A DNA stretch of 64,000 nt from Oceanicoccus sagamiensis (GTDB lineage Bacteria > Pseudomonadota > Gammaproteobacteria > Pseudomonadales > Dasaniaceae). The position numbers and the translations under genes were made by a program. Positions 29,285-44,215 of this stretch are shown piece by piece. Each line of letters opens with the position of its first letter. Position 1 is the first letter of the stretch. The stretch spans positions 3,348,001-3,412,000 of the forward strand of contig NZ_CP019343.1 of assembly GCF_002117105.1 (NCBI RefSeq), given 5' to 3'. The notes under the pieces were generated by a model that saw only the letters and a list, made by a program, of their open reading frames with translations, ran no database searches and was not told the origin of the DNA.

Positions 29285-30682
29285 ATGAAATATATCAGTA
29301 CTCGCGGACAAGCTCCTGCGTTAAATTTTGAAGAGGTTTTGCTAACCGGTCTGGCACCGGATGGTGGCTTATATGTACCAGAAAGCTTGCCAACTTTTTC
29401 TCAGCAAGACATCGCTTCCTGGGCTGGCTTAAGCTATACCGATTTGGCTTTTAAGATTGTGCAGCCCTTCGTGGATGACTGTATTCCCGCTGATGATTTA
29501 AAAGCGATTATTGATGATACCTATGTGGACTTTCGTCACCCCTCCGTTGCGCCGTTAGTGCAGTTAGATAAAAACGAATGGGTATTAGAGCTATTTCAAG
29601 GCCCGACGTTAGCGTTTAAAGATTTTGCATTACAAATGTTGGGGCGTTTGTTGGATTATGTGCTGGAGCGTCGTCATCAAAAAGTAGTGATTATGGGAGC
29701 CACGTCCGGCGATACCGGTTCTGCGGCTATCCAGGGTTGTAAGCGATGCAGCAATATCGATATCTTTATTTTGCATCCCCATCAGCGTGTATCCGATGTT
29801 CAGCGTCGCCAGATGACAACCGTACTGGCGGACAATATTCATAACATTGCCGTTAAAGGTAATTTTGATGACTGCCAGTCTATGGTTAAGGCCAGCTTTA
29901 ATGATAAAAGCTTTTTGCCAGAAGACCGGCAATTGGTCGCTGTAAACTCTATTAACTGGGCTAGAATTATGGCCCAGATTGTCTACTACTTTTATGCGTC
30001 TTTATCCTTGGGTGGCCCACTGCGTCCCGTGGCGTTCTCCGTGCCTACCGGCAACTTTGGCGATATTTACGCGGGCTACCTGGCCTCCAAAATGGGTTTG
30101 CCCATTGATCAATTAGTGGTTGCCACCAATACCAATGATATTTTACATCGCTGTATTAGCAATAACGATTTTGCCAAACATGCATTGGCGCATACCTTAT
30201 CGCCCAGTATGGATATCGTTATCTCCAGTAACTTCGAGCGCCTGTTATTTGATTGTTATGATCGTGATGGTGCGGCGATTAACGATTTAATGACCCGCTT
30301 CCAAACCGAAGATGTGGCGTTAACCGATGCGGCTTTTGCTAATGTGCGCAGCTTATTTGATAGCTATAAAGTCGATGACGAGCAAACCGTGAAAACGATT
30401 GCCGATGTGTATGACACGACGGAATATTTATTAGATCCGCATTCGGCCATCGGTGTGGAGGCTGCACGTAAGGTGCGTCGCCGTGATGATATTCCAATGA
30501 TTACTTTAGCTACAGCGCATCCAGCCAAGTTCCCTGAAGCGGTGATGAAGGCGGGTTATCCCCATGAGCCTGAGTTGCCGCACCATATGGCCACTTTGTT
30601 TGATGATGAAGAGCGTTGTACGGTGCTTGATAATGAGTTGAGCAGCGTACAGCAGTTTGTAGTGGATAATATCACTGCGTGA
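29285..30682 (+). CDS. thrC: Threonine synthase
   Basis: PLP enzyme that converts phosphohomoserine to threonine. 465 residues, the long form. PLP lysine in the block GPTLAFKDFALQMLG (about residue 108), glycine loop GATSGDTGSAAIQG, and PVAFSVPTGNFGDIYAGYL. Runs from ATG 29285, 29 bp after hom, forming a hom-thrC pair. A REP-like element follows its stop within 5 bp. Confidence 0.96.
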   Translation: MKYISTRGQAPALNFEEVLLTGLAPDGGLYVPESLPTFSQQDIASWAGLSYTDLAFKIVQPFVDDCIPADDLKAIIDDTYVDFRHPSVAPLVQLDKNEWVLELFQGPTLAFKDFALQMLGRLLDYVLERRHQKVVIMGATSGDTGSAAIQGCKRCSNIDIFILHPHQRVSDVQRRQMTTVLADNIHNIAVKGNFDDCQSMVKASFNDKSFLPEDRQLVAVNSINWARIMAQIVYYFYASLSLGGPLRPVAFSVPTGNFGDIYAGYLASKMGLPIDQLVVATNTNDILHRCISNNDFAKHALAHTLSPSMDIVISSNFERLLFDCYDRDGAAINDLMTRFQTEDVALTDAAFANVRSLFDSYKVDDEQTVKTIADVYDTTEYLLDPHSAIGVEAARKVRRRDDIPMITLATAHPAKFPEAVMKAGYPHEPELPHHMATLFDDEERCTVLDNELSSVQQFVVDNITA

Positions 30683-30686
30683 TTCT

Positions 30687-30730
30687 GGTGGATTATAATC
30701 CACCCTGCGTAGGGTGGATCGCGATCCACC
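30687..30730 (+). repeat. REP-like halves in reversed order between thrC and recJ
   Basis: Two half-sites touch directly: GGTGGATTATAATCCACCC, then CGTAGGGTGGATCGCGATCC. Compared with the other copies, the right-type half comes first and the left-type half second, with almost no spacer. The second half has the altered palindromic centre ATCGCGAT. It lies in the 71 bp gap between thrC and recJ. Confidence 0.75.
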
Positions 30731-30753
30731 TTGTCCCGGCGTACGGATAAGCT

Positions 30754-32487
30754 ATGCAAAAAATAATAAAACGCCGACCCAAAGCAGAAAATCGCTTTTC
30801 TGATGTATTACCCCCCTTGCTGCAACAAATCTACTCCGCCAGAGGTATAGCCTCTGATGAAGACATACAAACGGATTTATCGGGCCTGTTAACACCGCAA
30901 TCCTTAAAGGGCTTGCCTGAAGCTATTGATCTTTTAGTCACCGCCCTAGAGCAACAGCAACGCCTGCTGGTGGTGGGTGATTTTGATGCTGACGGCGCCA
31001 CCAGTAGCGCATTGGCGGTATTGGCCTTAACGGCAATGGGGGCTGAGTCAGTTAACTTCTTAGTGCCTAACCGTTTTGAATATGGCTATGGCCTAACACC
31101 GGAAATTGTTGCGGTTGCCACACAGTTTTCACCGGACTTAATTATTACCGTGGACAACGGTATCTCAAGTATCGACGGGGTTAAAGCGGCCAATGATGCC
31201 GGTATTAAGGTCTTGGTAACTGACCATCATTTACCGGGCACAACCTTGCCCGCCGCAGCGGCTATTGTTAACCCTAACCAGCCCGGCTGTCACTTTGACA
31301 GTAAAAACCTGGCCGGAGTCGGTGTTATTTTTTATCTGATGTCAGCACTGCGTTCAGCCTTAAGGGAGCGGCAGTGGTTTGCGCAGCGTCAGATTCAAGA
31401 ACCCGCGATGGCGGATTATTTGGATTTAGTGGCTCTGGGTACCGTCGCGGATGTTGTTCCTCTGGATAAAAACAACCGTATTTTGGTCGCGCAGGGTATT
31501 CGCCGTATTCGCGCCGGTAGAACCCGTCCGGGTATTAAGGCTTTACTGGCGGTCGGTAAGCGCAATGCGGAGCGCCTGGTCAGCAGTGATTTAGGCTTTG
31601 CGGTTGGGCCGCGTTTAAATGCAGCTGGGCGGCTGGATGATATGACACTGGGGATTCAGTGTTTATTAAGCGATGACCCTTATCAGGCCGGTGAGATTGC
31701 CCGCCAGATGGATGAGTTAAACCAGGACCGTAAATCGATTGAAGGCAGTATGCAGCGTGAAGCCATGCAGAGCTTAAAGGCGCTTAAGGTGGAAGAGGGC
31801 AATATGCCCTATGGCTTATGCCTCTATGATGCTAATTGGCATCAGGGTGTTATTGGTATTCTGGCTTCGCGCATTAAAGATCGCTATCACCGCCCTGTTA
31901 TTGTTTTTGCCGATGCCGATGAAGAGGGTGTGATTAAAGGCTCTGCTCGCTCGATCAGCGGTTTACATATCCGTGATGCTTTAGATGCGGTAGCCTCCCG
32001 GCATCCGGGGCTACTCAGTAAATTTGGCGGCCATGCCATGGCTGCCGGTATGAGTCTGGCTAAAGATCAATACCCGCTATTTGAGCAGGCCTTTGACGAG
32101 GAGGTACGCCGACAGTTAAGCGACGACGATTTGCAGGCAGTATTAGCCAGTGATGGTGCCTTGGCGGCAGACTCCTTTAATCTGGAGTTGGCCCAGTTAC
32201 TGCGTGATGCGGGCCCTTGGGGACAGCACTTTCCTGAGCCCTTATTTGATGGTGAGTTTCTACTCGTGCAGCAGCGGATTCTGCAAGATAAACATTTAAA
32301 ACTGGTGCTGGCTCTGGAAGAACAGCCGCAGCAGCCTTTGGATGCGATCGCGTTTAATGTTGATATGGCGTTATGGAAAGATCAGTCGATCGATAAAGTC
32401 AGGCTGGTCTATAAACTGGATGTTAATGAGTTTAGGGGCAATCAGACGCTACAACTGATGGTGGAGTATATCGAGCCTTTATTATAA
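30754..32487 (+). CDS. recJ: Single-stranded-DNA-specific exonuclease RecJ
   Basis: 5'-3' exonuclease on single-stranded DNA used in RecF recombination and mismatch repair. 577 residues, the same size as E. coli RecJ. DHH phosphoesterase motifs are present: VVGDFDADGATSSALAV near residue 73 (metal-binding Asp), TVDNGISS, TDHHLPG (the DHH motif) and GTVADVVPLD. The C-terminal DHHA1 part has HQGVIGILASRIKDRY and SGLHIRDALDA, then the OB-fold. Complete. Confidence 0.96.
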   Translation: MQKIIKRRPKAENRFSDVLPPLLQQIYSARGIASDEDIQTDLSGLLTPQSLKGLPEAIDLLVTALEQQQRLLVVGDFDADGATSSALAVLALTAMGAESVNFLVPNRFEYGYGLTPEIVAVATQFSPDLIITVDNGISSIDGVKAANDAGIKVLVTDHHLPGTTLPAAAAIVNPNQPGCHFDSKNLAGVGVIFYLMSALRSALRERQWFAQRQIQEPAMADYLDLVALGTVADVVPLDKNNRILVAQGIRRIRAGRTRPGIKALLAVGKRNAERLVSSDLGFAVGPRLNAAGRLDDMTLGIQCLLSDDPYQAGEIARQMDELNQDRKSIEGSMQREAMQSLKALKVEEGNMPYGLCLYDANWHQGVIGILASRIKDRYHRPVIVFADADEEGVIKGSARSISGLHIRDALDAVASRHPGLLSKFGGHAMAAGMSLAKDQYPLFEQAFDEEVRRQLSDDDLQAVLASDGALAADSFNLELAQLLRDAGPWGQHFPEPLFDGEFLLVQQRILQDKHLKLVLALEEQPQQPLDAIAFNVDMALWKDQSIDKVRLVYKLDVNEFRGNQTLQLMVEYIEPLL

Positions 32488-32601
32488 AGCCGGATGCTTA
32501 TTTGACGGGCGATTAAAAAACAGGGAAACTCAAGTAATAATAAGAGGTTATCGCTAAGATCTCGCAGCGCATTGGCAAACCCTGCGCGTTACAAAATAAT
32601 A

Positions 32602-33522
32602 ATGACATTGGGCATGGAAACTATGGGAATATTCGTATTATGTGTTTTTATTGCCTGCGCTATTTATGTGCAAGGACGAGGGGCGGTACAGCATGAAAAA
32701 TTGTCCAGAAAAATCACCGATCATTCCAACTTTTTAGCACCGATTAATTGTCTTTTTTATGCCTCATCCGAGGTGGCTAATTCCGCTTATATTGACGTCG
32801 ACGATTTTCCAGACTTAAGAGTCTTGGAAGATAACTGGGAAATGATCCGCGATGAGGCGGTTGCCCTCAATCAGCAACAGCAGATTAAATCATCGGATGA
32901 TCTCGATGATATCGGTTTTAACTCCTTTTTTCGTACCGGTTGGAAACGCTTTTATTTAAAGTGGTATGGCTCATCATTACTATCGGCCAATCAACTCTGC
33001 CCTAAAACCGTGGCATTACTGAATACCATTCCTCAGGTCAAAGGGGCTATGTTTGCGATGCTGCCTCCCGGGGCCAGACTGGTCAAACACCGTGACCCTT
33101 ATGCCGGTTCGCTGCGTTATCATCTTGGGCTGGTAACGCCTAATTCAGAGGATTGTTTTATTACGGTTGATGGTGAGAAATATGCCTGGAAAGATGGCGA
33201 GGCGGTTATTTTTGATGAGACCTTTATTCACTATGCGGAAAATAAAACTGATACCAATCGTATTATTTTATTTTTGGATATCAAGCGACCGGTTAAGTCC
33301 AGGCTGATTGATGGTTTTAATCGATGGTTTTCTGCGTTGGTATTATCGGCCTCTGCGACCAAAAATATAGCGGGGGACAAGGTGGGATTTTTAAACAGAC
33401 TGTTCTCCCATCTCTACCAGATTAGAATTCAGGGCAAAAAGCTCAAAGCTTATAACCGCAAGCTCTATTATAGTTTGCAGTATCTACTGTATATCGGGCT
33501 TATCTATCTGATCTTTTTCTAG
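32602..33522 (+). CDS. lpxO: Aspartyl/asparaginyl beta-hydroxylase family, LpxO-like lipid A hydroxylase
   Basis: Fe(II)/2-oxoglutarate dioxygenase resembling LpxO, which adds a 2-hydroxyl to a secondary acyl chain of lipid A at the inner membrane. About 306 residues from ATG 32602; ATGs at 32614 and 32623 are also possible. An N-terminal membrane helix (IFVLCVFIACAIYVQG) and a C-terminal hydrophobic helix (LLYIGLIYLIFF) flank the catalytic domain. This has SFFRTGWKRFYLKWYG, the metal ligands in HRDPYAGSLRYHLGL and ETFIHYAENKTD, and the cosubstrate Arg in NRIILFLD. Assignment to LpxO rests on this pattern; other substrates are possible. Confidence 0.8.
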   Translation: MTLGMETMGIFVLCVFIACAIYVQGRGAVQHEKLSRKITDHSNFLAPINCLFYASSEVANSAYIDVDDFPDLRVLEDNWEMIRDEAVALNQQQQIKSSDDLDDIGFNSFFRTGWKRFYLKWYGSSLLSANQLCPKTVALLNTIPQVKGAMFAMLPPGARLVKHRDPYAGSLRYHLGLVTPNSEDCFITVDGEKYAWKDGEAVIFDETFIHYAENKTDTNRIILFLDIKRPVKSRLIDGFNRWFSALVLSASATKNIAGDKVGFLNRLFSHLYQIRIQGKKLKAYNRKLYYSLQYLLYIGLIYLIFF

Positions 33523-33533
33523 CTGATATCAGC

Positions 33534-33570
33534 CAAAAAAAATGCCGCAATCAATGCGGCATTTTTTTTG
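33534..33570 (+). terminator. Bidirectional terminator between lpxO-like gene and mdh
   Basis: Stem AATGCCGCA with loop and TGCGGCATT, with an A run before and a T run after, so it can end transcripts from both strands. It lies between convergent genes. Confidence 0.9.
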
Positions 33571-33585
33571 AGCTAAGCGTTTAGC

Positions 33586-34566
33586 TTAAGGTAGCAAGTG
33601 CGCCACGCCATCACGCTCTTCAGTGAGTTCAGCTTCAGTGGCTTTCATTCTGCCCTGGCTGAATTCGCTAACTGACAAGCCTTGAACAATCGTCCACTCG
33701 CCATTCTCACAAGTACAAGGAAATGAGTAGATCAAACCTTCTTCAATACCGTAAGAGCCATCTGAGTAAACCCCCATAGACACATAGTCGCCATCCGTCG
33801 TGCCCAGCGCCCAGCTGCGAACGTGGTCGATAGCGGCGTTAGCAGCAGAAGCGGCAGAAGAAGCGCCACGGGCTTTAATGATAGCCGCGCCACGTTGTGC
33901 AACAGTTGGGATATAGTCGTTTTCGTACCAGTCTTGCTCAACCAGATCCAGAGCAGGGGTACCCGCAACTGTGGTGTTTGAAAGATCAGGGTACTGAGTC
34001 GCTGAGTGGTTGCCCCAAACGATCATGTTTTTAACGTCGGTAACAGCCTTGCCCGTTTTAGTCGCTAATTGCGACTTGGCGCGGTTGTGGTCCAAACGCA
34101 TCATGGCAGTGAAGTTCTCTTTAGGAATGCTCGGTGCATTGCGCTGAGTAATCAGAGCGTTAGTGTTGGCAGGGTTGCCTACAACCAATACTTTGATGTC
34201 TTTGCTGGCATTCTGGTCAATGGCTTTACCCTGAACAGAGAAGATAGCAGCGTTGGCTTCTAGCAAGTCTTTACGCTCCATACCTGGGCCACGAGGACGT
34301 GCACCAACCAATAGGGCATAGTCGCTGTCTTTAAAGCCAACATCAGGGTCGTCAGTGCAAACAACACCGGCCAATAGAGGGAAGGCACAATCGTCCAATT
34401 CCATCTTAACGCCTTCAAGGGCGTCCATTGCAGGGGTGATATCCAGTAATTGCAGGATTACAGGCTGGTCTTCGCCTAACATGGCGCCAGAAGCAATGCG
34501 GAAAAGAAGTGCATAGCCAATTTGGCCAGCTGCACCAGTAACGGTAACGCGTACGGGTTGTTTCAT
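33586..34566 (-). CDS. mdh: Malate dehydrogenase
   Basis: TCA-cycle enzyme that oxidises malate to oxaloacetate with NAD. 326 residues, the longer type found in many proteobacteria and related to the cytosolic eukaryotic form. The nucleotide fold starts [16 protein letters not shown] (residues ~6-21); catalytic blocks are [26 protein letters not shown] and [12 protein letters not shown], the last with the catalytic His. Complete and transcribed alone. Confidence 0.96.
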
Positions 34567-34676
34567 TGTAGTTTCCTATGGTTTGGCTATCGTTTGCTGA
34601 TAGTTTGTAACGGATTAGGGGCTCAAAATTTAGGGCGCCCATTCTAGTGATTTAGCGGGTAAATTTCCACCAAAAC

Positions 34677-34972
34677 CTAAGATTTGCTGGCGGCTTTTAG
34701 TTGGGGAGGCGCTATGCACCAATATGACCCCGATTCCAGTGCCGTGGCGGTCCGGGTACTGATTTCAACCACAGGAATCGAAGCTTCGGTCAAGGCCTCA
34801 TAGGCGGTCACCGCGATGATGGCACTGCTCTCCACCTCACAGAGCAGCAGGGCTGCGGGCCCATTACCGGCGTAGAGGCATTCCAGCAGGGCGCCGGGGC
34901 CGGCAGTGCTGCCTTTAATGCCCGGTAGTACCAGTAGGGTGCCTTTAATAGACAAGCCCTGTTGAGGGCGCT
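34677..34972 (-). pseudogene. Remnant of aconitase X swivel subunit (DUF126 type)
   Basis: The frame MSIKGTLLVLPGIKGS, then GPGALLECLYAGNGPAALLL, matches the swivel-domain protein of aconitase X (AcnX) systems, which dehydrate hydroxyproline or mevalonate-type hydroxyacids. The match continues upstream of the apparent TTG start as RPQQGL, then breaks into sequence that belongs to a LysR gene on the other strand. About 40-60 N-terminal residues are missing. The large AcnX subunit is absent here. Read as a truncated gene at a deletion junction near 34960-34975, not as a functional protein. The family call is from memory of its motif pattern. Confidence 0.6.
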
Positions 34973-35183
34973 GGGTATGCAGCCTTATGTAGAGCGGGAT
35001 ATTGCCTCTGGTCTACTGATGGAGATATTCCCCGGACAGCGCATTAAAGCCGCGGGGGAGTGGTATCTGGTCTGCCGCCAGGACCGGGCCGAGCAGGAAA
35101 AAGTCCGGATATTCCGGGAGTGGATGCTGGCGGAAATCGCCGCCGATACCGATCTGGTCAATACCCGTAATTCGCCCAATTAA
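34960..35183 (+). pseudogene. C-terminal remnant of a LysR-type regulator
   Basis: The last ~70 residues of a GcvA-like LysR regulator: ALGMQPYVERDIASGLL, then EWYLVCRQDRAEQEKVRIF and REWMLAEIAAD are typical of the C-terminal effector domain. The DNA-binding N-terminus and most of the effector domain (over 200 residues) are missing. The remnant begins where the AcnX-type remnant on the opposite strand also breaks. A single deletion that removed the 5' parts of two divergent genes explains both. Confidence 0.65.
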
Positions 35184-35278
35184 TCAGCAGGAAAATATTG
35201 AGCTATTACAAAAGTTTAAGGTAGAATTGCCGGCCGGAAAAATGCCGGGGTTTAAATACAGGTAAACAAGCAATTATC

Positions 35279-36343
35279 ATGAATGCCGCTGAACAACTAG
35301 AGACTACATTGCCGGATATTATCAAGCCAGTCTGGTGGACGGGTAAGCCTGCTGTGGCCCCCGAACGCTATCAAATTGATTGTGCGGATATGGCTCTGGA
35401 TGAGGCTGCCCTGCAACCGGGTGGCGAGCTCGACCGTCGTATCAATGAGGTATTTGACCGTGTCGGCTTGGTACATTTAATCAACACCGGTTTTACCGAT
35501 ATGCAGCTGATGCACAAGGCGGCCATGCTGGTGATTAAAAAGCAGGTCGAATACAAAGGCGGCTCCAACCCCCGCAGTGAATTACAGCCCAATGTTTATG
35601 AAGTGGGTGCGCCCTTATCGGCCTGGTTACATTACCACCATGAAATGGCCTATGTCGGCAGCAGCACAGAAATGTTGGGTTTTTTAGGTCACCACACCTT
35701 GGGTGATCGCGGTTGGACTTTTGTCTCTGATAACTTAAAAGCGACCGATGATATTTTGGCGACAGAGTTTGGCCAAAAGTTAAAAGAAAAAGGTTTATGC
35801 TATCACCGTAACCTGACCGACCGTGAAGCCTTTAAGGGCCGCCAGGAAATCGGTGTTTATAATCACTGGCAAAAATCTTTTCTTACAGAAGACCCGGAAG
35901 AAGCGGTGGCGATTGCAGAGAGTCGTGGTTTGCAAACCTCCTGGGGGCCGGACCGCTTATTAAAAACCCGTTACTATATTTCAGCGTTTGAATATTTTAA
36001 GCCGCTGGATCGCAATCTGTTGTATAGCAGTGTGGCCGACCATGGTATGTGGTTTGATACCTGGCCGCTGGTACAGCATCTGCCCTATGAAGATCGCCCA
36101 CTTAACCTGACCTTTGGTGACGATACACCAATGAGTCGTGAGGAATTGCAATTATTTGTCGATATCTATGATCGTCACGGTGCGCCGATTAAATGGGAAA
36201 AAGGGGATGTTGCGGTGATCTGTAATTACCGTTTTGCTCACGGTCGCCCTGAAGTACACCTTGCGGAGGGTGAAGTGCGTGAATTAGGTGTGATTGTTGG
36301 CAATAGCTACGACCGCGTGGGTGATGTCGAAGGCAAGTGGTAA
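35279..36343 (+). CDS. TauD/TfdA-type Fe(II)/2-oxoglutarate dioxygenase
   Basis: A 354-residue non-heme iron dioxygenase; substrate unknown. The ligand pattern H-x-E appears in LHYHHEMAY at about residue 120, and the distal His lies in NYRFAHGRPEVH near residue 323; a cosubstrate Arg may be the R of HGRPE. An Asp/Glu switch (HHE rather than HxD) places it near the SyrP/clavaminate-type branch. Its neighbours (FAD-linked oxidoreductase, broken keto-acid cleavage enzyme, thioesterase) suggest catabolism of a small quaternary-amine or hydroxyacid compound, but gamma-butyrobetaine hydroxylase is only one option. A terminator follows. Confidence 0.8.
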   Translation: MNAAEQLETTLPDIIKPVWWTGKPAVAPERYQIDCADMALDEAALQPGGELDRRINEVFDRVGLVHLINTGFTDMQLMHKAAMLVIKKQVEYKGGSNPRSELQPNVYEVGAPLSAWLHYHHEMAYVGSSTEMLGFLGHHTLGDRGWTFVSDNLKATDDILATEFGQKLKEKGLCYHRNLTDREAFKGRQEIGVYNHWQKSFLTEDPEEAVAIAESRGLQTSWGPDRLLKTRYYISAFEYFKPLDRNLLYSSVADHGMWFDTWPLVQHLPYEDRPLNLTFGDDTPMSREELQLFVDIYDRHGAPIKWEKGDVAVICNYRFAHGRPEVHLAEGEVRELGVIVGNSYDRVGDVEGKW

Positions 36344-36357
36344 ACCCGGTTAAAACA

Positions 36358-36392
36358 AAAAAGGGGAGTCTGTCGAGGCTCCCCTTTTTTAT
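36358..36392 (+). terminator. Rho-independent terminator after the dioxygenase gene
   Basis: Stem AAAAGGGGAGTC, with complementary GGCTCCCCTTTT after a short loop, and a T run. It lies between the dioxygenase and the FAD-linked oxidoreductase, so the two are separate transcripts in the main. Confidence 0.88.
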
Positions 36393-36416
36393 TGGCGAAA
36401 TATCAGAGAGTCAATC

Positions 36417-37793
36417 ATGAATAACATTGTGCAACAGTTACAGCAATTACTTGGCGCAGACAATGTGTTGCTGGGTGATGATGTTAGCAGTCGTTCTGCC
36501 GGTTGGAAGGGCGGCGATACGCAAGCGTTGGCTGTGCTAAGACCGCGCCATACTGAGGAACTCTCCGCCATTATCAAACTGTGTTCTGAGCATCGTCAGG
36601 CCGTGGTCTTACAGGGCGGTAAAACAGGTTTGGTGGATGGCGCTGTTAGCTCACAGCAAGAGATCGCGATTTCTCTTGAGCGGATGAATGCGATTGAAGA
36701 GTGTGACAGCACCAATCGCACCATGACGGTTCAGGCCGGTGTGCCTTTACAAGTCGTACAGGAAAAAGCAGCAGAGATGCAGTTGCAGTTTCCGCTGGAT
36801 TTGGGTGCTAGAGGGAGTGCAACGATTGGCGGAAATATTGCCACTAACGCCGGAGGTAATCGTGTTATTCGCTATGGTATGGCGCGTAATTTGGTGCTCG
36901 GTCTTGAGGCGGTATTAGCAGACGGCACAGTTATTTCCTCTCTGAATAAAGTGTTAAAAAATAATGCCGGCTACGATCTTAAGCAATTATTTATTGGCAC
37001 GGAAGGTACGCTGGGGATTGTGACTAAAGCGGTACTGCGTTTAAGTCCGGCCATGAATAGTGAAAATACTGCTTTGCTGGCTTTAAACAGTTTTAATGAG
37101 GTGATTGCCTTGCTGCATCACTGTGACCGGGAATTTGGCGGCAGCCTGAGCTCCTTTGAAGTGATGTGGAATAATTATTTTCAGTTTACGACGGCGGATA
37201 ACAGCTATGGCAAAACTGCTCCCATGTCCCGCGACTACCCCTTTTATGTACTCATAGAAACACAAGGCACTCACCAGCAACGGGATGAAGAGCAGTTTCA
37301 GCAGGTTCTAGCGGACCTTATGGAGCAGGGTTCTGTGATCGATGCCATCCTGCCACAGTCACAGGGTGAGCGAGACGCCCTCTGGGCTATTCGGGATAAC
37401 ATAGAAGCCATGAATATCCTTGGCCCGATTTTTCTCTACGATATCAGTATGCCTATAGAGCAGGCGGCGGATTATCTGACGGCGGCTGAGCAGCGCCTCA
37501 AGCAGCAGTGGCCGGATATGCAGTGGGCGGTATTTGGTCATCTTGGCGATGGCAATATCCATATTATCGCCGGTATTGGCAGTGATGATCCGGAGCAGCG
37601 CTATCAATTTGATGATTTATTGTATCAGGGGCTGGATAAAATCGGTGGCAGTGTGTCCGCCGAGCACGGTATCGGCACCGAGAAAAAGCCCTTTTTACAC
37701 TATAGCCGCAGCCCCGAAGAACTGGCCTTGATGAAAGTCTTGAAGCAGGCGTTGGATCCGCAAAATATTCTCAATCCGGGCAAGGTATTTTAG
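36417..37793 (+). CDS. FAD-binding oxidoreductase, D-2-hydroxyacid dehydrogenase type
   Basis: A 458-residue flavoprotein of the VAO/PCMH superfamily, GlcD/D-2-hydroxyglutarate dehydrogenase type. These oxidise D-2-hydroxyacids to keto acids and pass electrons onward. FAD-binding half: VVLQGGKTGLVDGAV, QFPLDLGARGSATIGGNIA, TNAGGNRVIRYGMARN and IGTEGTLGIVTKAVLR. The C-terminal half has the metal/substrate motif VFGHLGDGNIH and SAEHGIGTEKK. It starts 24 bp past a terminator and precedes the broken keto-acid cleavage gene. The substrate cannot be read from sequence. Confidence 0.88.
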   Translation: MNNIVQQLQQLLGADNVLLGDDVSSRSAGWKGGDTQALAVLRPRHTEELSAIIKLCSEHRQAVVLQGGKTGLVDGAVSSQQEIAISLERMNAIEECDSTNRTMTVQAGVPLQVVQEKAAEMQLQFPLDLGARGSATIGGNIATNAGGNRVIRYGMARNLVLGLEAVLADGTVISSLNKVLKNNAGYDLKQLFIGTEGTLGIVTKAVLRLSPAMNSENTALLALNSFNEVIALLHHCDREFGGSLSSFEVMWNNYFQFTTADNSYGKTAPMSRDYPFYVLIETQGTHQQRDEEQFQQVLADLMEQGSVIDAILPQSQGERDALWAIRDNIEAMNILGPIFLYDISMPIEQAADYLTAAEQRLKQQWPDMQWAVFGHLGDGNIHIIAGIGSDDPEQRYQFDDLLYQGLDKIGGSVSAEHGIGTEKKPFLHYSRSPEELALMKVLKQALDPQNILNPGKVF

Positions 37794-37835
37794 TGGTACA
37801 ATCGCCGGTTACTACTAATTATCGAGGTAACCATT

Positions 37836-38196
37836 TTGAATTCCGCCCAACAAACCATGAACCGTTCTGTGATTATCACCTGTGCGGTCACTGGTTCCGG
37901 TGATGCTGCCCATAAAAACCCGCAACTTCCAAACAATGGTCGATAATTTACCGGACCAGGCCAGCTGGGCAGGTTTTGCTTTGGGTAGCATGGAAATGCC
38001 AATGGTAGCCCAGGCGGCGCTGTTAGGTGGCCATGTCAGAGTAGGGCTGGAAGATAATCTCTATCTGGAAAAAGGTGTACCCGCGACCAATGCTCAACTG
38101 GTAGAGCGCGCTGGTAATATTCTCAACCTGATGGGTGCCAGCTTGCAAACGCCAGCTCAAGCCCGTGAAACCTTGCAGCTAAAACTTAAGCCATAA
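37836..38196 (+). pseudogene. Beta-keto acid cleavage enzyme (BKACE) gene with internal deletion
   Basis: The 5' end encodes MNRSVIITCAVTGSGDAAHK, the conserved BKACE N-terminus (ATG at 37857, or upstream TTG at 37836). That frame then stops at 37944-37946. From about 37920 the +1 frame encodes the C-terminal part: FQTMVDNLPDQASWAGFAL, then GGHVRVGLEDNLYLEKG and [12 protein letters not shown]. Normal BKACE proteins have about 270-310 residues; about 170 from the TIM-barrel middle are missing, including Zn-binding His residues. Intact homologues include the dehydrocarnitine cleavage enzyme CdhC. Non-functional as given; real deletion or assembly collapse. Confidence 0.75.
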
Positions 38197-38206
38197 GGTC
38201 CAAGTC

Positions 38207-38623
38207 ATGTCCGATAGCTTGATTGTATACAAAGGCGTAGCCCATCCGGAATTATGTGATGTGATGGGCCATATGACCACCCGGCATTATATTGCCATGT
38301 TTGACGATGCCTCCTACCATTTCTTATATACCGTCTTTGGTTGGAGTGGCGAACAGGCAAAAACCGATAACCGCGGTTGGGCAGATGTTAAACATGTGAT
38401 TGAGTACCAGGACGAGGTGGCCGCAGGGGATTTATTAGAGCTGCGGGCAAACTTTGTCAAAGTCGGTAATAAATCCATTACCGTTAGCTATAGCATGTTT
38501 AATCTGGCCAAAAACCAGTTGGCCGCGACATTGGAAAGTACCAGTGTTTATTTCGATACCCTGAACCGCAAAGCGATCCCGCTAACGGAAAGTATGCAGG
38601 CGCAGGCAAAACCTTATCTTTAA
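38207..38623 (+). CDS. Acyl-CoA thioesterase (hot-dog fold, possible CdhB-like)
   Basis: A 138-residue single-domain hot-dog protein of the 4-hydroxybenzoyl-CoA thioesterase class. The active-site region is [20 protein letters not shown], with the Asp of CDVMGH as likely catalytic residue, and a family segment [19 protein letters not shown]. It begins 10 bp after the BKACE gene. In Pseudomonas carnitine breakdown a BKACE (CdhC) and a thioesterase (CdhB) are paired and together give glycine betaine, so that role is possible, but no carnitine dehydrogenase is present here. Confidence 0.8.
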
Positions 38624-38640
38624 CCGCAAGTAGTAACGCC

Positions 38641-39540
38641 ATGAGTGACCTGGATACCAGAAAGAGCAAACTCGAATCTAACAAGCTGCAAAAACGCCTG
38701 CGGCGTTATGTCGGCCGCGCTATCGAAGATTATACAATGATAGAAGAGGGCGATCGGGTGATGGTTTGCTTATCGGGTGGTAAAGACTCCTATGCCATGC
38801 TCGATATTTTGATGAACTTGCAAAAAAGCGCCCCGGTGAATTTTGAGTTGGTGGCGGTCAATATGGATCAGAAGCAGCCGGGATTTCCTGAGCAGGTGTT
38901 GCCGAACTATCTCGATACATTGGATATTGAGTACTATATCGTTGATAAAGATACTTATTCCGTCGTCAAACAAAAAGTACCTGAAGGTAAAACGACCTGT
39001 GCTCTATGCTCTCGGTTACGTCGCGGTACCTTATATGCGTTTGCCGAAACAATACATTGCACCAAGATCGCCCTGGGTCATCATCGCGATGATATTGTTG
39101 AGACGATGTTCTTAAATATGTTTTATGGCGCAAAACTTTCAGCTATGCCGCCCAAACTTTTATCCGACGACAAACGCAATGTGGTCATTAGACCGATGGC
39201 CTATTGCAAAGAGGCGGATTTAGAGCGTTACGCAAGCATTAAACAGTTTCCGATTATTCCCTGTAATTTATGTGGCTCTCAAGAAAATCTGCAACGCCAG
39301 AATATTAAAGCGATGTTGCAGCAGTGGGAAAAAGAAAACCCCGGCCGAGTGCAAAGTATTTTTGGCGCGTTACAGAATGTCAAACCTTCACAGTTGGCTG
39401 ATACGGCGTTGTTTAACTTTACTGATTTGCCATTAGATCGGGAAGGCGAAAGGAGTGACTACGAATATCAAGAGGCCGAAGTCTCGTCGTCTAATATCCC
39501 TACAGGCGTACAGATTATTGATGCCATTTCTTTGGGGTGA
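38641..39540 (+). CDS. ttcA: tRNA 2-thiocytidine biosynthesis protein TtcA
   Basis: ATP- and iron-sulfur-dependent enzyme that thiolates C32 of several tRNAs. 299 residues. The PP-loop [10 protein letters not shown] is at about residue 43; the Fe-S ligand cysteines are in [11 protein letters not shown] and [24 protein letters not shown] is also typical. It starts 17 bp after the thioesterase gene, so transcription may read in from the catabolic genes, but the functions are unrelated. Complete. Confidence 0.95.
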
Positions 39541-39560
39541 TGGTCAAAGCCTGTGAGTAT

Positions 39561-39632
39561 CGTAGGGTGGATTGCAATCCACCAAGCCCAACCATAAGTC
39601 TTTATAACCGATGGATTATAATCCACCCTACG
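39561..39632 (+). repeat. REP-like inverted pair, full copy after ttcA
   Basis: Left half CGTAGGGTGGATTGCAATCC, right half ending TAATCCACCCTACG. The loop AAGCCCAACCATAAG... closely matches the copy at 20667-20739. What follows (GAAAGAAAGCGTGAACG) also matches that site, so the two share more than the pair itself. Confidence 0.85.
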
Positions 39633-39660
39633 GGCTAAGCCCTTGAAAGAAAGCGTGAAC

Positions 39661-39705
39661 GAGATGCCAGAGCTGTGCTGGGTAGGGGATTGCGGGACCG
39701 TGAAA
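39661..39705 (+). repeat. Truncated palindromic element, one arm only
   Basis: Contains GTGCTGGGTAGGGGATTGCG, then GGACCGTGAAAA, the left arm of the 20773-20903 element, with the same sequence before it. The core and the second arm are missing; unrelated sequence starts after the A run. A decayed copy of the composite module at 20667-20903. Confidence 0.7.
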
Positions 39706-39813
39706 AAAATAGCAGTGGTAGCCATATCTGGCCAAATTCCATACCCGAATCCTGAAAATCATCTATATTGGATGTAGTTTGTTGAATTAATGTATTAACA
39801 ACCTGGATTCAGT

Positions 39814-42090
39814 ATGCCGTTAGCCCAAGACCCTCGCCTATTAAGGGGGCAGTTACAAACGGTTTTCAAGTTCTATACCATTGCCATCACCAGCAGCTAT
39901 GTGCTCGTGTTGCTGAATGGCTTTGCGCTATGGAATGTCGCCGATAAAACCACAGTAATTGTCTGGTTAATGGTGGCCACCGTTATTTCTCTGGTGCGCT
40001 ACTACCTGAGCTCTATTTTTCGTCGGGATGAAGAGGCCTTTAGCCATTCCGTCTGGATGTTCCTGCATACCCTGATCACTTTGTTTTCAGCGGTTATTTG
40101 GGGCTATGCCTTAATGGCCTTGATGCCTGATGATTCCCTTGCCCACCAGTTTCTATTGATTATCGCTATTGCCGGGCTCTGCTCTGGGGCTTCCAGTACG
40201 CTGGCGTTTTCGCCACTGGCGTATTTTCTCTTTCTGGCTGCCTGTCTGATGCCTATGTCGGTTCGTCTGTATATGATCGAATCCAATTACAGTGAGCTGC
40301 TATTTAGCCTGTGCTATATCTATATGTATTTTATGTGGACCACCTGCCGCCGCAATAGTGAAACGGCGTTACAGAATTTAGAGAAGTCCTTTATTCTGAA
40401 TGAAAAGGAGTCCGCCTTAAACGAAGCTCATCAACGGGTGGACCTGCATATTGACCGTAGCCCGCTGGGTATTATTGAGTGGGATATCGATCTAAAGGTG
40501 AGCCGCTGGAACCCCGCAGCAGAAAGTATTTTTGGCTATACCTCCGAGCAAATGCTGGGCGAGTCCTTTAGCACTTTATTAGCCGGTGACGATAGTGATT
40601 ACTTTCTGAAAATCGATCACGCGGATAGTTCCAGATCCAGAACCCTGAAAAATGTCACCCATTCCGGTGATAAAATCTATTGTGAATGGACCAGCGCGAC
40701 TATGCGTTTGCCCGATGGTGAATTACTCGGTTACAGTTCCTTTGTGCGTGATATTACCAAGCGACTGGAGCGTGATGAGTTAATTACCCACCAGGCCTAT
40801 TATGACCCGGTCACCGATTTACCCAACCGGCATTATTTCCACGATCGCCTAAAGCAGGAGATCAGTCGAACCAGCCGTAACAAAACCTATAGCGCCGTAT
40901 TTTTTGTCGACTTTGATCATTTTAAAGCGATTAATGACTCCATGGGGCATTCCATGGGCGATGTATTATTGCGCCAGTTTGCTGAACGTTTACAAAACCG
41001 CCTGCGCCAATACGATACCGTGGCCCGTTTTGGTGGCGATGAATTTGTGGTGTTGCTGGAAGAGTTGGACCTGGATTATGAAAAATCCCAGCTACAGGCT
41101 GCTCAGGTCGCTCGCTCCTTACAGCTATTATTGCAAAAACCCTTTGTACTGGATAAAACGGATTACCAGCTAACCTGTAGCATCGGCATTACGCTATTTA
41201 ACGATAGCTCAGCCAGTGAAGATGAATTGCTTAAACAGGCGGATTTAGCCCTGTATCAAAGCAAGGAGAAAGGACGTAACCTCTATACCTTCTTCGAGCA
41301 GGAAATGAGTCAGCAGGCCTCCCGTCATTTGCAATTGTTAAACAGTTTACGTGGTGCGGTCAGCAACAATGAAATGTCATTGGTTTACCAGCCCAAAGTG
41401 GATATGCACAGCAATAAAATTATGGGTGCTGAGGCGCTATTACGCTGGAATAATAATGATTTTGGTTTTGTCTCTCCGGCTGAATTTATTCCAGTGCTGG
41501 AAGGCTCTTCGCTGATTTCCCAAGTGGGTCACTGGGTGTTGGATCAGGCTTTTAGCCAGTTAAAATACTGGTATAGTGCGGGCCAGTGGCGAGAAGATAT
41601 GGGTCTGGCGATTAATATCAGTCCAAAACAGCTATTGGATAAAAGCTTTGTTGAGCAGGTGGAAGTGCTATTGGCCAAGCATGATATTCCCGCTTCTCTG
41701 GTTGAATTTGAAATCACCGAAAATGTGCTGGTAGAAAATACAGAAAGAATTACCCAAGTCTTGTTACAGCTTACTGAACTGGGTATCAGTTTTTCGATTG
41801 ATGATTTTGGTACCGGCTATTCGTCTCTGGCCTATCTGAAAAAACTACCTATCGAAGTCTTAAAAATCGATAAGTCCTTTATCGATCACTGCACCACCGA
41901 GGGCAATGATCAGGCGATAGTTCGCAGTATTCTTAGTATTTGTAATGAGCTGGGTTTAACCTCGGTCGCCGAAGGGGTGGAATACCAGGAGCAGCAGCAT
42001 CAATTGCAGGATATGGGTTGCGATTTATTGCAGGGCTATTTATTTAGCCGCCCAGTACCCGCGGATGAGTTTGAAATGTTACTGAAGTAA
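39814..42090 (+). CDS. Membrane PAS-GGDEF-EAL protein
   Basis: Predicted c-di-GMP turnover enzyme, 758 residues. N-terminal membrane region with several helices (about 20-190). A PAS domain follows at about 205-325 (GIIEWDIDLKVSRWNPAAESIFGY). The GGDEF domain has an intact RFGGDEF (407-411) and an I-site RQYD just before it. The EAL domain keeps EALLRW at about 540, DDFGTGYSSLAYL and EVLKIDKSFID. Both catalytic motifs look intact, so it may be bifunctional. Convergent with the TPR-sulfotransferase, 13 bp apart, near the flagellar cluster; a role in swim/attach switching is inferred. Confidence 0.92.
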   Translation: MPLAQDPRLLRGQLQTVFKFYTIAITSSYVLVLLNGFALWNVADKTTVIVWLMVATVISLVRYYLSSIFRRDEEAFSHSVWMFLHTLITLFSAVIWGYALMALMPDDSLAHQFLLIIAIAGLCSGASSTLAFSPLAYFLFLAACLMPMSVRLYMIESNYSELLFSLCYIYMYFMWTTCRRNSETALQNLEKSFILNEKESALNEAHQRVDLHIDRSPLGIIEWDIDLKVSRWNPAAESIFGYTSEQMLGESFSTLLAGDDSDYFLKIDHADSSRSRTLKNVTHSGDKIYCEWTSATMRLPDGELLGYSSFVRDITKRLERDELITHQAYYDPVTDLPNRHYFHDRLKQEISRTSRNKTYSAVFFVDFDHFKAINDSMGHSMGDVLLRQFAERLQNRLRQYDTVARFGGDEFVVLLEELDLDYEKSQLQAAQVARSLQLLLQKPFVLDKTDYQLTCSIGITLFNDSSASEDELLKQADLALYQSKEKGRNLYTFFEQEMSQQASRHLQLLNSLRGAVSNNEMSLVYQPKVDMHSNKIMGAEALLRWNNNDFGFVSPAEFIPVLEGSSLISQVGHWVLDQAFSQLKYWYSAGQWREDMGLAINISPKQLLDKSFVEQVEVLLAKHDIPASLVEFEITENVLVENTERITQVLLQLTELGISFSIDDFGTGYSSLAYLKKLPIEVLKIDKSFIDHCTTEGNDQAIVRSILSICNELGLTSVAEGVEYQEQQHQLQDMGCDLLQGYLFSRPVPADEFEMLLK

Positions 42091-42103
42091 TCTTTAACCA
42101 TGA

Positions 42104-44215
42104 TTACCGCTCTGGAGCCAAATCCCCCAGCGCCTCAAATAACGGCTCCAAAAAATCTTCATAACGACGCCAGCGCTCCAGCGACGAGGTATAGATGGGC
42201 TGGCGTACCTGTATCACGCTGGCGGTTTTAACGGATCGTTGATGGTGATGAAATTCCAGGCACTGTGGGTCCCATGCCAGTCCGCAATAATGAATTAATG
42301 CTTTGGCCTCGGCTTCGGTATTGGCGACTAAATCCTCATACTGTATTTCGTAAAAGGCATTGTCGGGTAATACCTCGCGCCAGTGTTGCATAATATTATG
42401 ATAGTCGCGGTAGTAAGCGCCCATTTCGGCCAAGTCATAGCTGTGATTCTGGCCCTGTTTAAATAGCTTGGAAAAACCGGAAATACAGGTATCCACCGGG
42501 CTGCGTTTTACATGAATAATTTTTGCATTGGGCAGCATCAGATGAATCAAACCCAGATAAAAATAATTGGCTGGCATTTTGTCCGTGATCAATTCGGCAT
42601 CGCTATTGCGGCTGCGCAATGAGGCTACATAGCGTTGGCCTAATTGCTGAAAGTCCTCGGCCTGCAATTGCTCAACATTGGCAGGGTATTTAAAGCTTTC
42701 GTTAGAGCCACTGATCGTGTAGTTAGCTACGGTATTACTTAAATCGGGTAATTCACCAGCCCCAAAACAACGGGGATGGCTGGCAATAATTTGCTCGGTC
42801 AGTGTGGTGCCGGAGCGGGGCATGCCGAGAATAAAAATCGGCGTGGTCGACGGGTCACCACCGCCACGAAACTGGTTCACACGAGCTTTAGTGAAGGTGG
42901 TAATAATATTCAGCGCAGCAAGGGTATTATCCGCTTTGCTATAGTGGATCTTCTCTCGTTTCAGGCGGCAGGCCTCGATAAAGTGCTGAAAGCTTTGTGG
43001 ATAGTCTTCACAGTCACCGTAGCTTTTACCCAGCGCAAAATGCAGGGCAATGGCTTTGGTTTTAGCCTGTGGGTCCTGTTGTTCGGCCGCTTGTTTGAGT
43101 TTGGCAAAGTTCTTATCGTCAGCCCTGACCTTTTTTAACTGCGCCAGACTTAGTCGGCAGGGAATAGAGTCCGGGTCCAATAGCAGAGCCTGCTGCAAGC
43201 AGTCTTCAGCGAGTTGTAGTTGGCCCAGTTCCGTGAGCAGGTGGCTTTTACCGATATGACTGGCGATATCTTTTGGCTCTAGTAATAGCGCCTGCTCATA
43301 GTGTTGCATGGCCTTATCGGGAAAGCCCATCACCGTATACAGCCCAGCCAGCTGCGACTGGGCGTTAACCAGCTGCTTATCCTGTTCGATCACTTGCTGA
43401 ATGATCGCCTCAGCGGCGTTAAAGTGATTGGCTTCTTGCTTCAGTGCGGCCAGCCCCAGCATGGCCTCGGTAAAACCGGGTTTAAAGTGCAGGGCCTGAT
43501 TAAACGCTATTTCCGCCTGCTGATAATCCTCCAGCATTAAATAGCTGCTACCGGCATTGCGGTAGGCTTCGGCGTAATTCGCTTGCAGCTCTATCGCTTT
43601 TAACACCAGTGGCAGCCCCTGTTCCGGGCTGTCTTTTTCGGTTAATACTGCCCCCAGATTATTCAGCGCTTCGGCATAGTGAGCATCGTTGGCTACCGCC
43701 TGTTGGTAATAGTCGATCGCCACATCTATCTCTTTGTGATGACGGGCAATGCTCCCCAGATTGTTGAGTGCCTGCGGCAGTCCGGCGTTGATCGCCAGTG
43801 CCTGTTGTTGGTAATGGCTGGCCTTGGAATAATCCTCTTGGTCAAAATAGGCAATCCCCAGGTTGCTAAGGGCAGGGGCGTAGTGAGGGTCTAATTCAAT
43901 AGCGCGATGGCCTGTGCTGATCGCCTTCTCCGTTTGCCCTGCTTGTCGGTACATTTCGGCAAGGTTGCTGTGGAACAGGGCGGTATCCGGTTGTGAGGCG
44001 ACAGATTTTTCAATTAAGCCAATCGCCATATCAAGTTTTTGCACTTGATGGGCAATACAACCCAATAAGTGCAGGGCCGCCCCGTGAGTTGGGTGAAGCT
44101 GCAAGATCTTCTGCAACAGAATTTCCGCATCCTGCAATTGACCCCGGGCCTGGTGTTGGGCTGCCAGCTTAAATGCATCGGCAATAGAGAGTGGTTGGTT
44201 GTCAGATAAGCTCAT
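42104..44215 (-). CDS. TPR-repeat protein with C-terminal sulfotransferase domain
   Basis: 703 residues. Residues ~30-430 are a run of tetratricopeptide repeats (GAALHLLGCIAHQ, ALSNLGIAYFDQEDYSKA, EALNNLGAVL). Residues ~460-690 are a sulfotransferase domain of the PAPS type: ILGMPRSGTTLTEQII at about 460-475 (5'-phosphosulfate loop) and IIHVKRSPVDTCISGFSKLF (3'-phosphate site). No signal peptide. Acceptor unknown; such fused proteins are widespread in marine proteobacteria. Its start lies about 195 bp from fliE on the other strand, so surface or flagellin sulfation is a guess only. Confidence 0.88.
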   Translation of the reverse strand: MSLSDNQPLSIADAFKLAAQHQARGQLQDAEILLQKILQLHPTHGAALHLLGCIAHQVQKLDMAIGLIEKSVASQPDTALFHSNLAEMYRQAGQTEKAISTGHRAIELDPHYAPALSNLGIAYFDQEDYSKASHYQQQALAINAGLPQALNNLGSIARHHKEIDVAIDYYQQAVANDAHYAEALNNLGAVLTEKDSPEQGLPLVLKAIELQANYAEAYRNAGSSYLMLEDYQQAEIAFNQALHFKPGFTEAMLGLAALKQEANHFNAAEAIIQQVIEQDKQLVNAQSQLAGLYTVMGFPDKAMQHYEQALLLEPKDIASHIGKSHLLTELGQLQLAEDCLQQALLLDPDSIPCRLSLAQLKKVRADDKNFAKLKQAAEQQDPQAKTKAIALHFALGKSYGDCEDYPQSFQHFIEACRLKREKIHYSKADNTLAALNIITTFTKARVNQFRGGGDPSTTPIFILGMPRSGTTLTEQIIASHPRCFGAGELPDLSNTVANYTISGSNESFKYPANVEQLQAEDFQQLGQRYVASLRSRNSDAELITDKMPANYFYLGLIHLMLPNAKIIHVKRSPVDTCISGFSKLFKQGQNHSYDLAEMGAYYRDYHNIMQHWREVLPDNAFYEIQYEDLVANTEAEAKALIHYCGLAWDPQCLEFHHHQRSVKTASVIQVRQPIYTSSLERWRRYEDFLEPLFEALGDLAPER

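Follow-up and report, generated by a model that had tools for sequence, protein, structure and literature searches.

Two pieces of a gene for a keto-acid-cleaving enzyme (BKACE) lie in different reading frames between mdh and ttcA in Oceanicoccus sagamiensis, within the 64,000-nucleotide stretch of its genome that was analysed as a whole (the window). The 4.1 kb that separate mdh from ttcA are filled by remnants of an AcnX and a LysR gene, a TauD gene, a FAD oxidase gene, the broken BKACE gene and a thioesterase gene. The features are:

33586..34566, minus strand: mdh, which we take to encode malate dehydrogenase; complete, 97.5% identical to the gene of genus mate G002 over its full length; left border of the block
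34677..34976, minus strand: AcnX remnant (cis-3-hydroxyproline dehydratase type); PF01989 at 40.2 bits against a cut-off of 27, NF051439 below cut-off
34962..35183, plus strand: LysR regulator remnant, C-terminal end only; NF008352 model positions 237-301 of 305, E 6.7e-11, below cut-off
35279..36343, plus strand: TauD/TfdA-family dioxygenase, intact, 354 aa; PF02668 E 3.8e-10, nearest solved chain 1y0z at E 2.1e-11
36417..37793, plus strand: FAD-dependent oxidase of GlcD type, intact, 458 aa; PF02913 and PF01565; 61% identical to a gene of G018 that adjoins a TauD homologue
37836..37946, plus strand: N-terminal BKACE piece, in one frame; TTG start (alternative ATG at 37857), frameshift stop TAA at 37944-37946
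37882..38196, plus strand: C-terminal BKACE piece, an open frame of 104 codons in another frame than the N-terminal piece; homology from about 37924
37924..37931, no strand: deletion junction AACTTCCA, which can be read in either frame; the two sides share 5-8 nt
38207..38623, plus strand: 4HBT_2 acyl-CoA thioesterase, intact, 138 aa; PF13279 E 1.4e-17
38641..39540, plus strand: ttcA, presumably for a TtcA-type tRNA thiolase; complete, 73-84% identity over nearly the full length to 6 genus mates; right border of the block

An accessory block between mdh and ttcA

In five of the six genus mates (G001-G004 and G006) mdh and ttcA are within about 0.5 kb of each other, so the block in the window is accessory, as an earlier note made from the sequence had proposed. 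No mdh was found in the 6.4 kb fetched before ttcA in the sixth, G005. The flanking housekeeping genes mdh, ttcA and recJ are full length, and so is the thioesterase after the BKACE gene; the note had called the flanking housekeeping genes complete and the thioesterase intact. Among NCBIfam models this thioesterase comes closest to NF005716, a carnitine 3-dehydrogenase fusion, matching its thioesterase part with a score far below the cut-off. The gap between recJ and mdh (32488-33585) holds a 316-aa ORF here, a 156-aa ORF in G003 and a 407-aa ORF in G004, and shrinks to less than 0.1 kb in G001 and G002. This gap and the one between mdh and ttcA together look like a variable spot.

The note had expected relatives with an intact run of FAD oxidase, BKACE and thioesterase; the full run was absent from the loci examined, but genes of the block occur elsewhere as two pairs: G018 has TauD beside FAD oxidase, and G051, G087 and G018 each have BKACE and thioesterase together, separated in G018 by a MarR gene. 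When genome contigs were searched with the FAD oxidase, a single locus came up, from a Rhodospirillaceae MAG; the 13.4 kb fetched there contain neither a BKACE nor a thioesterase match. A plasmid search matched 61 records; in the best 5 of the 61 it is the FAD oxidase portion of the query that matches, and FAD-binding oxidoreductase is the annotation in 2 of these 5. The note had also read the acnX and lysR remains as a second scar, which is supported in part. The AcnX fragment is the sole NF051439 match in the genome, and the LysR fragment matches only the last ~65 residues of a LysR model, below its cut-off. In three relatives whose acnX surroundings were examined, no LysR gene adjoins acnX. 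The two remnants abut at about 34955-34976 on opposite strands. Between the TauD and FAD oxidase genes, at 36354-36393, an inverted repeat of 18 nt whose end is rich in T resembles a terminator; it is absent from the terminator scan list. A structured RNA was also considered and dropped, as the Rfam scan of 30000-44000 gave nothing at gathering scores.

Two BKACE pieces and a 551-nt gap

The whole genome was searched with the intact BKACE of G051, which itself matches PDB 3c6c with an E of 1.8e-92. The query lacked its first Met, so that query numbers are protein numbers minus one. Residues 1-25 were found at 37860-37934 (68% identity, E 0.002) and residues 203-291 at 37915-38181 (78% identity, E 1.6e-38), which recovers the first ~25 and last ~90 residues that the note had recognised in different frames. 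The C-terminal piece matches the model of the BKACE family (PF05853, formerly DUF849; Kce type) with 98.4 bits against a curated cut-off of 24.8 and covers only model positions 184-274 of 274; a separate scan gave E 8.1e-29 and positions 185-274. The N-terminal piece resembles the beginning of an intact family protein. Placement of the N-terminal piece relies on the G051 protein search and on codon comparison, as the MAFFT alignment sets it against the wrong columns. Besides the two pieces the genome has no match to the full-length G051 query (E up to 1), and besides the C-terminal piece there is no PF05853 match in this 4.47-Mb single-contig genome (E up to 0.001). As these searches found no other BKACE match, the idea of a split gene whose middle part lies at another place was rejected.

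The net deletion is 551 nt (~183 residues), and it is equal against the intact BKACE of G051 (310 aa) and of G018 (305 aa), two references from two other families of the same order. This is more than the ~170 residues first estimated. In both references 182 residues lie between the leucine of the N-terminal homology and the asparagine that begins the C-terminal one. As 551 is not a multiple of three the reading frame changes, and compared with the Kce-type family the window gene is without both its middle ~183 residues and its frame. Both ends of the gene are present and collinear, with a gap and a frameshift relative to intact relatives, and the genome holds no intact copy that could make the fragment a product of duplication. 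The locus is therefore very probably a deletion pseudogene of BKACE, of the ordinary kind, and the comparison with intact relatives agrees with the note in placing the loss in the middle of the barrel.

The junction could be placed at 37924-37931, inside the interval of 37920-37935 suggested before. Its eight bases AACTTCCA read as Leu-Pro in the N-terminal frame and as Asn-Phe-Gln in the C-terminal frame; of these, the five bases CTTCC code for conserved residues whichever frame is read, and the other three can be assigned to either side. A mobile-element insertion was rejected since every junction base is accounted for by one or other flank. The left deletion site reads CTTCC in G018 and the right site reads AACTTCCA in G051, and in neither of the two do the left and right sites carry one and the same string, so that a short direct repeat in the ancestor is something we infer. 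At a spacing of 551 nt, sharing of at least 5 bases by chance occurs at 0.6%, and of at least 8 bases at 0.02%, of 8,779 window positions, which favours a deletion between short direct repeats. Most likely, slippage or end joining between such repeats (CTTCC or longer) would have removed the 551 nt and brought codon ~207 behind codon ~25 in a different frame. We found no paper joining a pseudogene with microhomology.

Loss of function, age of the break and other readings

The missing residues (~26-206) include HIHVRD. In an alignment with the Kce structure 2y7d this stretch falls on HLHIRE, and we take its histidines to be ligands of the catalytic metal. The remnant does not have a complete TIM barrel with the HxH metal site of the N-terminal half, and because this active-site stretch lies within the lost part it cannot be a working BKACE. 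The acidic motif GLEDN of the C-terminal half, presumably a metal ligand as well, is kept (VRVGLEDNL). Among the starts tested, the TTG at 37836 has the strongest ribosome-binding match (-7.3 kcal/mol, against a random 5% level of -7.1). Ribosomes entering at this native start would make a peptide of ~36 residues and stop at 37944, and a product with a complete active site could not be made. From sequence, the enzyme step and its pathway would thus have been lost. The stop of the N-terminal piece comes 260 nt before the thioesterase start, and the break may have polar effects on the thioesterase and on ttcA.

The C-terminal piece has no further stop or frameshift, which suggests that the break is probably recent relative to species divergence. 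In an alignment of 31 intact homologues, with homologue insertions relative to the window dropped and columns filled in less than 80% of homologues omitted, it keeps 22 of 22 invariant and 4 of 4 near-invariant columns. A leave-one-out control at otherwise invariant columns left 10 of 11 intact homologues unchanged (G150 had one change), so in this test the piece behaves like an intact gene. Its nonsynonymous difference is 0.168 to G051 and 0.204 to G018, and these two intact genes differ from each other by 0.176. To the outgroup G150 the window is higher (0.275, against 0.227 and 0.239 for the G051 and G018 genes) and to the outgroup G005 it is lower (0.260, against 0.296 and 0.288). As the synonymous sites are close to saturated, dN/dS is unusable for nearly all pairs; a dS value was obtained for one pair only, window and G008 (dN 0.30, dS 1.57). 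In a tree of the C-terminal part the window groups with G051, G087 and G018 (support 95/95). Its end branch of 0.31 was flagged as long by the tree tool (G018 0.20, G051 and G087 0, median 0.054), and given this length some decay of the piece may have taken place.

A C-terminal piece undamaged by stops or frameshifts, as in an intact gene, would also be seen if the gene of the strain were intact and 551 bases had been lost in the assembly or consensus. We consider such an error unlikely: the genome is a single contig, the junction shares only 5-8 nt, which we judge too short for an assembly collapse, and no listed repeat of at least 16 nt in 34500-38700 overlaps it. The loss of 551 nt is also far from sequencing indels, which are usually of 1-2 nt. 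Very unlikely, in our estimate, is that the 104 codons persist as a functional small protein, such as a partner of another enzyme. The open frame and the retention of all 26 conserved positions speak for this reading, but the ribosome-binding matches at the possible starts of the C-terminal piece (GTG 37882, -2.1 kcal/mol; ATG 37903, -2.9) are around the random median of -2.7, the piece is a fraction of a TIM barrel, and the genome has no other BKACE match with which it could pair. That the fragment is translated and was selected as a small protein of new function after loss of the barrel would be the most improbable of all. Read as a deletion pseudogene, the locus records the death of one gene in an accessory block that is absent from most genus mates. 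It makes the thioesterase and FAD oxidase beside it, both intact, doubtful members of a pathway that is broken.

BKACE relatives and the lost step

BKACE converts a beta-keto acid and acetyl-CoA to acetoacetate and an acyl-CoA, from which the adjoining thioesterase would free the acid. The step that was lost is probably the formation of a CoA thioester from a beta-keto acid. A quaternary-amine keto acid as its substrate is a guess, with about an even chance of being right.

Among 293 genomes searched, 37 had a BKACE match, and 30 intact loci from these were examined. Within 1.5 kb of BKACE, 25 of the 30 carry a homologue of the carnitine dehydrogenase of G005; one of these is G005 itself and the others are 31-68% identical, four of the 25 being only 31-35% identical so that they may be other dehydrogenases. 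A thioesterase is found at the same distance at three loci (G051, G087 and G018) and neither gene at the remaining two. With NF005716, the E of the best match was 8.6e-23 in the genome of the window, 7.3e-23 to 1.8e-31 in G018, G051 and G087, and 1.4e-73 to 1.6e-118 in G005, G008 and G150; as none of 8 genomes passed the cut-off, the contrast between the groups is one of score. By this search there is no clear carnitine dehydrogenase in the genome of the window or in G018, G051 or G087, and the best match of the former to the G005 enzyme has 26% identity (E 1e-17). For want of a clear carnitine dehydrogenase, carnitine degradation was dropped as a firm assignment.

In the tree the window gene is a cousin of the carnitine-degradation BKACE that stands beside carnitine dehydrogenase (presumably the one named CdhC). 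Unlike the latter, the members of its sub-clade (G051, G087 and G018) adjoin a thioesterase, in genomes without a recognisable carnitine dehydrogenase. The substrate of this sub-clade with a 4HBT_2-type thioesterase (loci L026, L027 and L093) may therefore differ from 3-dehydrocarnitine. The comparison sets a small thioesterase-linked BKACE sub-clade apart from the common kind linked to carnitine dehydrogenase, a modest point for annotation. The BKACE of G051 also has a betaine/carnitine/choline-family transporter as a neighbour, which the models for choline and glycine betaine fit more closely than the carnitine model does. In G087 an ORF beside BKACE has a start similar by eye to that of the G051 transporter.

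For Pseudomonas aeruginosa, an extract of a published study describes the conversion of carnitine via 3-dehydrocarnitine and betainyl-CoA to glycine betaine by carnitine dehydrogenase, BKACE and DhcAB (PMC12482172). We found no paper linking dehydrocarnitine to beta-keto acid cleavage, or cdhC to a thioesterase. According to excerpts of another study, a gene region of Arctic SAR11 holds genes for carnitine dehydrogenase, gamma-butyrobetaine dioxygenase and BKACE, and the legend of another figure mentions an acyl-CoA thioesterase next to genes of this kind (PMC12421898). As far as these excerpts describe the SAR11 region, the window resembles it in having a variable block with an oxygenase and a BKACE gene. 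It differs in that it has no carnitine dehydrogenase and its BKACE is broken, and its oxygenase is a TauD-family enzyme that may or may not act on gamma-butyrobetaine.

A palindromic element of the form GTAGGGTGGATT-(25-50 nt)-AATCCACCCTAC has a copy at 39562-39631, and 14 half-sites lie in the window. There are 229 copies in the genome, against 0 for a control pattern, and some of the listed sites form regular arrays. We take the element to resemble a REP/REPIN-type family.
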